The notes under the pieces were generated by a model. It worked only from the letters and a program-made list of their open reading frames with translations, searched no databases and was not told where the DNA came from. From Armatimonadota bacterium (lineage in GTDB: Bacteria > Armatimonadota > JAAZEB01): a stretch of DNA of 34,758 nucleotides. The stretch covers positions 1 to 34,758 of the forward strand of contig JAAZEM010000125.1 in the NCBI GenBank assembly GCA_012512265.1, read 5' to 3'. Shown piece by piece: positions 4,063 to 34,648 of this stretch (within the stretch, counting starts at the first letter, position 1; the number at the start of each line of letters is the position of its first letter). The translations under genes were made by a program, and so were the position numbers.

Positions 4063-4139
4063 TGGTAGCCCGGACGGGGATCGAACCCGCAAGCTCCGCC
4101 TTGAGAGGGCGGTGTCCTAACCAATTAGACGACCGGGCC
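4063..4139 (-). tRNA. tRNA-Glu (anticodon CUC), CCA encoded
   Basis: The minus strand folds as a standard cloverleaf. The 7-bp acceptor stem is GGCCCGG with CCGGGCT (first pair G-U). The anticodon stem-loop is CCGCC-CTCTCAA-GGCGG, giving anticodon CUC for GAG codons. The T-arm is GCGGG-TTCGATC-CCCGT. Discriminator A and the CCA end (4063-4065) are encoded. The D-arm and the GGACACCGCC block are typical of bacterial tRNA-Glu. The gene has its own perfect promoter at 4192-4220 and is directly followed by T6. Confidence 0.97.
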
Positions 4140-31316: not shown

Positions 31317-31741
31317 GTGGTAAATCCTCCCCTCTGGGGGTAGCACTGCCTCGTTTGCGAGCGCTGAACGCGGGCATCCCTTGTGGGCCGACGAAGTGGC
31401 CGGCCCCATGGATGGCGCCTGTGCCCAACGCCCGCCGGGCCCCTTGTCGGTCGCGCGTGAAATGCCCGGCCCTGCGAGGATGTTGCCGGGTAGCGCGCCA
31501 CCACAGCACCGCGCGAAGAGTAGCGAGCTGTCTCGAGGCGGAACACGCGGTGTGCTCAGGTCGCCACCGCGTGTCTGCTACGCGGCCAGTATAGCACGCA
31601 CCCGCGCCAGTGTCAACGGGCATGCGCGGAAGCAGCGCCGACGCGCCCGGCGGCGCAGAACGCAGGACTTTCACCGCGGCGGGGCGAAGAGTGACACGAC
31701 AGAGGATTTCCTCCCTGTCCAACGGAGCCAGGGGATTCCTG
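31317..31741. other. Divergent control region between the OMP and the ASKHA genes
   Basis: It holds the OMP promoter (31588-31616) and a 265-nt GC-rich leader on the minus strand. On the plus strand the ASKHA frame stays open back to 31610 but lacks a start with a ribosome binding site. No clear plus-strand promoter was found. No small gene is supported. Confidence 0.4.
31588..31616 (-). promoter_or_regulatory. Strong promoter of the outer-membrane protein gene
   Basis: Minus strand TTGACA (31611-31616, perfect), a 17-bp spacer and TATACT (31588-31593, one mismatch) preceded by TGC (extended -10). The start is predicted near 31581. Confidence 0.8.
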
Positions 31742-33241
31742 ATGAAGATACGCGTGATGCCCCTCGGGGCTGAAGTCGAGGCCGCGCCGGGTCAGGCGCT
31801 GCAGGACGTGCTCTTTTCGCTGGGCGTGGAGTTTCCGTGCGGCGGCCGTGGCCGGTGCAAAGGATGCCGGATCCAGGTGCTGGAGGGCTCTCTCTCACCA
31901 CGGCCGGCCGATTACGAGGCGTTCACCCCCGAGGAGTTGCGCGATGGCTGGCGGCTCAGCTGCCGGGCGCGAGTAGAGGGAGATCTGGTGATCCAGGTCC
32001 GCCAGTGGGATACCCTGGTGCTCTACGACAACACCCCGGTGGAGTTTGAGCCGCAAGAGGGCCTCGGGATCGCGATCGATATCGGCACCACGACCGTGGT
32101 GGCGCAGTTGCTGGACCTGGCAACAGGCCAGGTGCGCGCCGTGCGCGCGGGCCTGAATCCCCAGGCGCGCTGGGGCGCTGACGTCATCTCGCGCATGGAG
32201 CACGCGATGGCGGGCGAGGCCGCGGCGCTGAGCGATGCGATCAACCAGGGTCTATCGGCCATGGTGCTTGCCCTGTTCGAGAGCACGCGCCTGCCGTGGA
32301 CCGAGCTCCGAAAGATCGCCGTCGTGGGCAACACGGTGATGCAGCACCTGATGCTCGGCTTCCCGCTCGAGCAGCTCGCGATGGCGCCGCATGTGCCCTA
32401 CACGATGGAGGAGCAGACGCGGAGCACGGCGGAGCTGGGCTGGCACCTCCCCGTGGACGTGCCGCTACGCTTCCTGCCCAACCTGGGCGGATTCGTGGGC
32501 AGCGATATCCTCGGCGTCATCCTGGCGACGCGCATCCTGGAGAGCGACGTCCTGGTTGCAGCCGCCGATCTGGGGACCAACGGCGAGATCGTGGCAGGCA
32601 GCCGCGAAGGGGTTCTCGTCTCTTCGACGGCGGCCGGTCCGGCGTTCGAGGGGGGACGCATCGAGATGGGGATGCGCGCGGGCAAGGGCGCCATCTCACG
32701 CGTGAGCGTCGTGGACGGCCGGATGGAGGTCCAGGTGATCGGTGGGGGAGCGCCCCGCGGCATCTGTGGCAGCGGTCTGGTCGATGCCGTCGCCGCCGGC
32801 CTGGAGCTCGGCCTGATCCAGCCCACCGGGCGAATCACCGAGGGGGATCGCGTGGTGATCCAGGAGCCGGTCGCCATTACCCAGCGAGACGTGCGCGAGC
32901 TGCAACTTGCTAAGGCCGCGATTGCCGCCGGCTTGCGCATGCTCCTCGAAGAACTGGGTAAGACGGAGGAGGATGTCCAGAAGTTCTACCTGGCGGGGGC
33001 GTTCGGCAATACCCTGGGCGTGACGAGCGCGGAGCAGATCGGTCTCTTCCGATTCGGGAGCGAGAGGACGATCCCGGTGGGGAATGCTGCCCTGCGTGGT
33101 GCGAAGATCGCGCTCCTCTCTCGCGAGGGCGGGGTGCCGGCGGGGATCCAGGAGCGAATCCGCTTCCTCAATCTCTCTGCCCGACCGCGCTTCCAGGAGC
33201 TGTTCGCCGAGAAGATGCTGCTAGACCCCGAGCCGATGTAG
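31742..33241 (+). CDS. [2Fe-2S] ferredoxin-ASKHA domain protein (DUF4445/RACE-like)
   Basis: A 499-residue cytoplasmic protein. The N-terminal ferredoxin domain has Cys33, Cys39, Cys42 (FPCGGRGRCKGC) and Cys74, the ligands of a plant-type [2Fe-2S] cluster. The rest is an ASKHA-type ATPase fold with AIDIGTTTVVAQLLD from about 111 (phosphate-1), AADLGTNGEI, and VSSTAAGPAFEGGRIEMGMRA. This combination is found in activators of corrinoid proteins (RACo/RamA-like) that use ATP to drive reduction of inactive Co(II); many homologues, including those without corrinoid neighbours, are uncharacterised. ATG 31742 has AGGGGA six nt upstream. Only 57 nt separate it from the multihaem cytochrome gene, so they are probably one unit; electron transfer between them is a guess. 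Confidence 0.9.
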   Translation: MKIRVMPLGAEVEAAPGQALQDVLFSLGVEFPCGGRGRCKGCRIQVLEGSLSPRPADYEAFTPEELRDGWRLSCRARVEGDLVIQVRQWDTLVLYDNTPVEFEPQEGLGIAIDIGTTTVVAQLLDLATGQVRAVRAGLNPQARWGADVISRMEHAMAGEAAALSDAINQGLSAMVLALFESTRLPWTELRKIAVVGNTVMQHLMLGFPLEQLAMAPHVPYTMEEQTRSTAELGWHLPVDVPLRFLPNLGGFVGSDILGVILATRILESDVLVAAADLGTNGEIVAGSREGVLVSSTAAGPAFEGGRIEMGMRAGKGAISRVSVVDGRMEVQVIGGGAPRGICGSGLVDAVAAGLELGLIQPTGRITEGDRVVIQEPVAITQRDVRELQLAKAAIAAGLRMLLEELGKTEEDVQKFYLAGAFGNTLGVTSAEQIGLFRFGSERTIPVGNAALRGAKIALLSREGGVPAGIQERIRFLNLSARPRFQELFAEKMLLDPEPM

Positions 33242-33284
33242 GCGGTCGGCCCGTGGGCGCCGCCGATTTCCTTTACGCCTTGAG

Positions 33285-33296
33285 AGGAGGTGATCC
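33285..33296 (+). promoter_or_regulatory. Exceptionally long Shine-Dalgarno sequence
   Basis: AGGAGGTGATCC is a 12-nt perfect complement of the bacterial 16S rRNA 3' tail, and the GGAGG core ends 8 nt before the TTG start at 33299. It decides the start: the GTG at 33290 lies inside the site and cannot be used. It also signals strong translation of a gene with a weak start codon. Confidence 0.85.
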
Positions 33297-33298
33297 CG

Positions 33299-34648
33299 TT
33301 GGCCGATCGAGTGGCGCGCAAGCGCGCGAGGATCTGCTTTCTCCTGATTGCAGCCGTGGTAGCCGCGTGGGCGCCGCACCTCCTCCCGGTGGCGGACCGG
33401 TGGCTGGAGGCGCGCCGGATACGCACGAACATTGCCATCCTCTATACGACTGACACGCGCGGCTTCCTCGATAGCTGTGGGTGAGGGGGTGCCCTGGGGG
33501 CCGGTCTGGCTCACCGTCACACCTTCTTAGCCCGCGAGCGCGAACGTCGTCCCTTCTCGCTGCTGGTCGATGGCGGTAACGCGGCGGATACTCCGACGAA
33601 GCTGGAGGTGATCCTCCGTATCATGGGGGCCGACCTCTACGACGCGGTGGGCGTGGGTGCGCTCGACCTGCAATACGCGCGTGAGTATGCCCAGGCAGCA
33701 CCTGGCCAGATTCCCCTGGTGCGGGCGCTTCCCCGCGACGATGCGCTTGCCCGCCTGAGCGTTGACCTGCGCGTGAAGCGGCTGCGAGGCCGCGATATCG
33801 GAGTGACTTCGCTGCCCCCGCCTCCCGAGGGGACTGGGCGCGAAGCCTACCTCGACGCGGCGGCGCGTGCCCTTGCCGAGATGCGCCAGCGCTGCGACTT
33901 CCTGGTCCTGCTCAGTCAACTTGGTCTAGAAGGCGATCTGGAGCTCGCGCGGCGGTGTGGAAGCGCGGGGCCGCACGCGATCATCGGCAATATGGAAGCG
34001 GCCACCCTCCGCGAGCCGCTCCATGTGGGCGATACCGTTCTGCTACCCACGGGAGCGGGCGGAACCCACGTGGGGATCGCCGAGATCGTCTTCCCGGCAT
34101 GGGGCCGGCCCCGGATCGAGCATGTGGCCGTGGTGCCGGCGAAGGTGGAGGGGCCGAACCGCGCCGCCGATCCGGCCATCGAGGATACGATTGCTCGCTT
34201 CTATGAAAGCGAGCAGGACGCGTTCGTGGCGCGAATCGACCGCCGGCTACTCGCAGCGGAGATGGCAGAGGGCGCGGGCGATGAACAGCGTTGCGGCAGC
34301 TGCCACCGGCACGCCGTCGCGACGTGGAGAGAGACGGCGCACTCCCGGGCGGTCGATACCCTGATCGAGCGCAAGCGTCTCGTCCCCGAGTGCCTTACCT
34401 GCCATTCGACGCGCTATGCCGCGACGGGCCGGTTCGATCATGCGGCGCGTGCCGGCGATGTCGATTGCACCGGGTGTCACCCCGTTGTCTCGGAGAAGGA
34501 ATCTGCGTGCCCGGAAAAGGCGGCGCGCACGCGGGGAGTGGCGTCGTGCGCCTCGTGTCACACCCCGGCGCATAGCCCTGGGTTCAATTACACGAGTTAC
34601 CTGTCGCGTGTCAACCATGCCTGGAAGCCGGCTGGGATTCCGAGATAA
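33299..34648 (+). CDS. Putative selenoprotein: UshA-like domain fused to a four-haem cytochrome c554-like domain (Sec62)
   Basis: 449 residues if TGA 33482-33484 is read as selenocysteine. Residues 12-30 are a hydrophobic signal/anchor. The next domain starts NIAILYTTDTRGFLDSCG-U62-GGALGAGLAHRHTFLA. It matches the 5'-nucleotidase-like (UshA/SoxB) proteins that read D-T-H-G...PCGC...LGGLARRA, so Sec replaces the second Cys of C-G-C. The frame and similarity continue past the TGA (SLLVDGG, DAVGVGALDL). The usual catalytic His and Asn positions are changed (DTR, GALD), so phosphatase activity is doubtful. The C-terminus has four haem motifs: CGSCH 332-336, CLTCH 365-369, CTGCH 390-394 and CASCH 417-421, as in cytochrome c554-type proteins, ending NYTSYLSRVNH. 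Start TTG 33299. Alternatives are a nonsense pseudogene or a sequencing error. Confidence 0.75.
33482..33515 (+). promoter_or_regulatory. In-frame TGA with bacterial SECIS-like hairpin
   Basis: TGA is at 33482-33484. After 18 nt, loop GGTCT (33503-33507) is closed by a 5-bp stem, GGGCC (33498-33502) with GGCTC (33508-33512), one G-U pair; G33496-C33514 can add a pair. As I recall it, the E. coli fdhF SECIS also has a GGUC(U) apical loop that begins 18 nt after the UGA. SelB needs the G-U of such loops. The stem is shorter than some, and other folds (GGTG/CACC) compete, so it needs testing. Confidence 0.65.

Follow-up and report, generated by a model that had tools for sequence, protein, structure and literature searches.

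Selenoproteins with a C-x-U motif in a UshA-like domain have been catalogued before. A 2008 listing contains the entry 'COG0737, UshA-like, CxU' (PMC2398784), which in the accessible part of that paper is placed outside the group of families that have conserved Cys-based redox motifs, and UshA-like C-x-U selenoproteins are listed again in tables of PMC9312934 and PMC13188914. The latter table ties them to the NCBIfam model NF041198 and adds a second family, NF049981. No function is given for these proteins in the available portions of the three papers. The NF041198 model, named 'UshA-like (seleno)protein' (UshA_like_PCGU), covers a UshA part as well as a haem part. The protein described here is encoded near the end of a stretch of 34,758 nucleotides from an Armatimonadota bacterium, the whole of which is referred to as the window. 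It shares with NF041198 the UshA-like domain, the C-x-U motif and the C-terminal haem part: positions 21-268 and 408-519 of the model were matched in model order within one chain, and the second place of C-x-C/U in the UshA-like domain is taken by Cys or Sec. Nevertheless, the window protein scored 126.1 bits and did not reach the curated cut-off of 275, and ten relatives scored between 116 and 218 bits, so that under the curated rule these eleven proteins are not members of NF041198. The clade of the window protein further differs from NF041198 in the loss of a haem-domain His, the gain of Cys404 and the presence of a RACo neighbour, while its host likely belongs to another phylum than the listed NF041198 examples. 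The original prediction had taken the protein to represent an unknown selenoprotein family. The view that the family is entirely new was given up in the light of NF041198 and of the papers from 2008, 2022 and 2026, as far as their contents were accessible. The window protein is likely a divergent relative of the UshA-like (C-x-U) selenoproteins, the kind being known and the branch new.

Other described systems resemble the window protein in one part or another. The second UshA-like family, NF049981, was matched in its UshA-like part at residues 46-230, but the score of 39.8 bits did not reach the cut-off of 140, the 262-position model was matched only in the UshA part, and its motif is given as CxxU in the accessible part of the source, whereas the window protein has CxU. 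UshA, the 5′-nucleotidases and SoxB (1ho5, 3ivd, 2wdc) gave a clear fold match to the window domain; unlike these, the window protein is changed at seven of the eight metal-site positions and adds Cys-Gly-Sec and a haem part. Cytochrome c554 (1bvb) matched the part with four CxxCH motifs with a phmmer E-value of 3.5e-4, the match being limited to residues 329-425. The solved 'multiheme cytochrome c selenoprotein' MccSep (PDB 9wt8-9wtc) likewise combines multiple haems with Sec, but in a profile search its match was confined to the haem stretch (E 4.8e-4), its Sec lies at position 325 and it was not among the fold-search matches listed. ExtKL (NF040886) also combines multiple haems with Sec, but the window protein scored only 9.5 bits against this model, whose cut-off is 250. 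Neither UshA nor Armatimonad was found in PMC5029168 or in the accessible part of PMC12013277, and a search of one literature library returned neither a paper on the solved MccSep structure nor one that treats RACo, corrinoid and a selenoprotein together.

The predicted selenoprotein gene spans positions 33299-34648 of the forward strand. By sequence reading, a ribosome binding site, GAGGAGGTGATC (33284-33295, forward strand), carries AGGAGG at 33285-33290, from which a spacer of 8 nt leads to the TTG start at 33299. The frame comprises 449 codons plus a TAA (34646-34648), with Sec as codon 62: the in-frame TGA (33482-33484) lies directly 3′ of GAT-AGC-TGT-GGG (D-S-C-G) and is followed by 387 open codons. 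The frame opened by a ribosome binding site, the TGA after DSCG, the 387 codons and the four CxxCH motifs of the original prediction were all confirmed in the sequence. Residues 2-40 (33302-33418) form a predicted single helix in the secondary structure of the protein model and, judging from a basic and then hydrophobic start, are likely a membrane anchor. Profile searches and fold searches with the model assigned residues about 40-310 (33416-34228) to the UshA/5′-nucleotidase fold, and this domain carries the Cys60-Gly61-Sec62 motif (33476-33484). The haem domain (34292-34561), recognized from the sequence, Pfam and phmmer, has its CxxCH motifs at residues 332-336, 365-369, 390-394 and 417-421 and matched Pfam Cytochrome_C554 (PF13435) with 29 bits against a cut-off of 20.8. 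Thus, the description as a multihaem cytochrome holds for only half of the protein: four CxxCH motifs are present, but residues about 40-310 have the UshA/5′-nucleotidase fold with C-G-Sec. The gene likely encodes both parts, the UshA-fold domain with C-G-Sec and the four CxxCH motifs, joined in one chain.

The identity of residue 62 was examined in relatives of the window protein, for which a Cys at the TGA position had been foreseen. In a tblastn comparison with the first fetched loci, residue 62 was aligned to Cys or TGA in all 32 covering rows, one further row having no coverage of this residue. A wider set of 77 rows, in which one TGA gene was counted twice, was aligned with 17 family members and displayed TGC in 39, TGT in 11, TGA in 25 and other codons in 2 rows. 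Three rows (L068, L075 and L076), in which C-G-TGA was shifted by one or two codons, were re-registered by eye, and the site then showed Cys in 49 and TGA in 28 rows, accounting for 77 of 77. In a 66-row family alignment, consisting of the window protein and 65 of 70 stretches (two further ones, L090 and L041, had been skipped for an inner TAG), C60 and residue 62 were each kept in 65 rows, the remaining row being a gap. The nearest relative with DNA, G001, which belongs to another genus of the same family and is 47% identical, also has TGA at this site. A read error in the window assembly is therefore not the explanation. Chance can be excluded chiefly on the grounds that other genomes have a TGA at this very Cys of the alignment. 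Furthermore, the differences from G001 at codon positions 1, 2 and 3 amounted to 0.37, 0.33 and 0.58 over the 375 codons after the TGA, as compared to 0.46, 0.44 and 0.53 over the 61 codons before it. The low differences at positions 1 and 2 relative to position 3 after the TGA indicate that the downstream frame is under selection. In agreement with the expectation that gene callers would truncate such a gene, the stored proteins P0002-P0005 from other contigs of the clade all begin after the Sec site; P0002 and P0003 share 99% identity with the window protein. A new family model would mend both the truncation of the stored clade proteins and the position of this branch below the curated cut-off.

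Downstream of the TGA we found a predicted SECIS hairpin (33489-33520, forward strand). Its GGTCT (33503-33507) starts 18 nt past the TGA, and the same pentamer starts 18 nt past the in-frame TGA of E. coli K-12 fdhF (NC_000913.3); the fdhF-like spacing put forward in the original prediction is thus exact. RNA folding of the window sequence placed GGUCU in the apical loop. According to the accessible part of PMC13188914, bacterial SECIS elements have an apical loop of 3-9 nt with a G in the first two places, an upper stem of 4-16 bp and a loop 16-37 nt past the UGA, and the window element conforms to each of these rules. The window hairpin alone was not stronger than shuffled sequences (z of 0.34, -1.21 and -0.25 for three cuts) and did not differ significantly from synonymous recodings (z -1.45, p 0.10). 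Support for the hairpin comes from the set of relatives and not from the window hairpin alone.

This set contained 25 distinct Sec forms, the duplicate being merged and L068 and L075 left out, and 49 Cys forms, of which 48 entered the loop-codon count (L042 has no Gly site). A conserved Gly-Leu located seven or eight codons past the site was encoded as GGT-CT in 22 of the 25 Sec forms versus 7 of the 48 Cys forms (Fisher p 9e-10, calculated, like all hairpin statistics here, over related rows that are not independent), and in a tree-corrected test with 10 pairs the loop codons reached a median p of 0.25, which is not significant. The share of GGT among the other Gly codons of the same genes was 17% for the Sec set and 12% for the Cys set. 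With L068 (GGG-GTT) and L075 (GGG-GTC) included, GGT-CT was present in 22 of 27 Sec forms. Exactly at the fdhF distance, GGTCT was detected in 20 of the 25 Sec forms and was missing from five; GGT-CT was wholly absent from three of the 25. Seven stem pairs formed in 120 of 140 cells of the 20 Sec forms with GGTCT at the fdhF distance. The 40 Cys forms that have Gly at this distance reached 139 of 280 cells, and slid controls gave 29-53%. Stem pair 16-33 appeared as GC, GT, CG and TA. Relative to synonymous recodings, the hairpin had a mean z of -1.52 in Sec forms (p<0.05 in 11 of 25) versus 0.03 in Cys forms (1 of 48).

The genome from which the window derives is a metagenome-assembled genome that is 97% complete, with 6% contamination, in 219 contigs. 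All four genes of the Sec-decoding set named in the original prediction, selA, selB, selC and selD, were found in it: the tRNA-Sec scored 71.7 bits against a cut-off of 47, and SelB, SelA and SelD each scored above their curated cut-offs. Across genomes, SelB was detected in 17 of 19 with a Sec form, as compared to 16 of 30 whose fetched forms all had Cys (Fisher p 0.012), and the two Sec-form genomes in which SelB was not found, G001 and G030, both have a tRNA-Sec. When 14 genomes were tested for tRNA-Sec, it was found in all 10 that have a Sec form, as against one of the four that have Cys forms. The window genome also gave two matches above cut-off to cytochrome c assembly genes. No second selenoprotein was shown in this genome: the six matches from a search for Sec-type formate dehydrogenase did not exceed the cut-off and were free of inner stops.

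Conceivably, the TGA could be a sequencing or assembly error or the mark of a decaying pseudogene, and the assembly is indeed fragmented into 219 contigs and 6% contaminated. This we consider highly improbable, since 28 of the 77 rows, G001 among them, share a TGA at this alignment position, the frame past it is under selection, and the starts of P0002-P0005, which lie on other contigs, fall behind the site, as a TGA there would lead one to expect. The codon could also be a real stop, with a short anchor peptide as one product and a second product made from an inner start; a frame of 346 codons is open from GTG 33608, for example. However, such an inner product would have no signal or anchor and would miss the first strand of the UshA fold, while relatives have an aligned Cys with the frame conserved straight through, and the genome contains the Sec-decoding genes, which makes a stop very unlikely. 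Under a changed genetic code, UGA would stand for another residue such as Trp, and the frame would be open under any such code. Yet Cys is the residue aligned there in the 32- and 77-row sets, without a single Trp, a dedicated tRNA-Sec, SelA and SelB are present, and a downstream hairpin is common to the TGA forms, so that we find a changed code hardly conceivable. The central claim of the original prediction, TGA as selenocysteine in C-G-U, is supported by the alternation at the site and by the sel genes. We therefore hold with considerable confidence that TGA 33482-33484 encodes Sec and that 33299-34648 would give one relative of the UshA-like C-x-U proteins, 449 residues long, with a likely anchor, a predicted UshA fold with Cys-Gly-Sec and four CxxCH motifs.

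A further alternative concerns the role of the UshA domain, which might still be a metal-dependent phosphoesterase or a SoxB-like hydrolase in which the Cys-Sec pair is structural or regulatory and not the catalytic centre. The clear fold match to 5′-nucleotidases and SoxB would fit with this, and the first Asp is kept as D52 (Asp in 43 of 66 rows). At the other aligned positions, however, the window protein has R54, N94, A121, L122, Q207, M232 and A234, where 3ivd has H, D, N, H, H, H and H, respectively. Given the metal-ligand roles that we assume for the eight positions in 3ivd, the UshA-type two-metal ligand set is absent from the window protein. His occurs at the place of Q207 in 19 of 66 rows, but the pair that is conserved instead is C60 and residue 62, each in 65 of 66 rows. 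Although the fact that UshA-like proteins were not counted among the Cys-based redox-motif families in the accessible part of PMC2398784 would also favor a hydrolase, we regard this role as unlikely. The preferred reading remains that of a Cys-Gly-Sec protein with an altered metal site.

The haem part and the gene upstream set the clade of the window protein apart. A His at column 399 was found in 63 of the 66 family rows and is absent from the window protein, G001, P0004 and P0005, the latter two being outside these rows; the same four proteins all have Cys404. Both features lie within 34493-34510 on the forward strand. Upstream of the selenoprotein gene, at 31610-33241 on the same strand, is a gene for a RACo-type ASKHA activase with a 2Fe-2S domain (Pfam Fer2, Raco_middle and RACo_C_ter), the end of which is 57 nt from the selenoprotein gene. 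G001 has a RACo-type gene upstream as well, with a gap of about 30 nt, and the two RACo proteins are 70% identical; the linkage was judged in these two, the only clade members with DNA. RACo relatives are, however, common (22 of 22 genomes tested), and in G002 no UshA-like gene was found within 4.1 kb behind its 72% RACo relative. The linkage is therefore a lead and not proof, and a shared operon of the RACo-type activase and the selenoprotein gene is to be taken as a lead as well. The RACo frame of G001 (L049:68-3970) is open over at least 1300 codons, with RACo only in the last 520 and no Pfam match in the front part. Among mechanically called neighbour ORFs, one of three beside the G001 gene (L049) was RACo and two had no Pfam match, while beside other Sec or Cys genes (L052, L055, L056 and L057) six of seven had no Pfam match and one had a BNR domain.

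As to mechanism, we suggest that SelB and Sec-tRNA would read the UGA, aided by the hairpin. The protein would be exported and would receive four c-type haems. Its former metallophosphoesterase site would have lost the ability to hold the two metals, and the Cys-Sec pair would carry out two-electron thiol/selenol chemistry on a substrate, its electrons being passed one by one to or from the haems. In the window clade, as a lead only, the selenoprotein may act together with the upstream RACo-type activase. In SoxA, DsrJ and TsdA, haems acting on sulfur compounds have a distal Cys instead of His. A more far-reaching and rather doubtful possibility is that the RACo-linked clade represents a new redox enzyme derived from a dead metallophosphoesterase, with Cys-Gly-Sec in the former two-metal pocket and the distal His of one of the four haems replaced by Cys, which would be made with a RACo-type activase and would carry electrons to or from the haem wire, with a sulfur or corrinoid-linked substrate at the other end. 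Concrete predictions for biochemistry follow from the altered metal site and from the His lost and the Cys gained in the haem part of this clade.

The alternation of Sec and Cys at one site within the phylum amounts to a natural experiment. On a tree of 65 rows, from which the truncated copy L036 was left out, 14 Sec/Cys changes were required. One case involves two genes of one genus with 95.4% identical DNA, L075 (G106) with TGA and L081 (G129) with TGC at the Sec site, and this difference is a very recent Sec/Cys switch. In two genera the switch goes together with the absence of tRNA-Sec. In the g59 genus, G139 has Sec in both tandem genes (L022) and a tRNA-Sec, whereas G073 has Cys in both tandem genes (L025), and SelB and tRNA-Sec were not found in it; in the g20 genus, G020 has Sec and a tRNA-Sec, whereas G161 has Cys, and SelB and tRNA-Sec were not found. 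One of the G073 Cys genes retains a SECIS-like hairpin (z -2.35), which is likely a fossil, whereas its tandem partner has lost the stem. Many Sec-form copies of the family are present in G072 on several contigs (L062, L063, L064, L066, L094 and L095). In the window itself, the only RNA gene found was a tRNA-Glu (ctc) at 4063-4139 on the minus strand.
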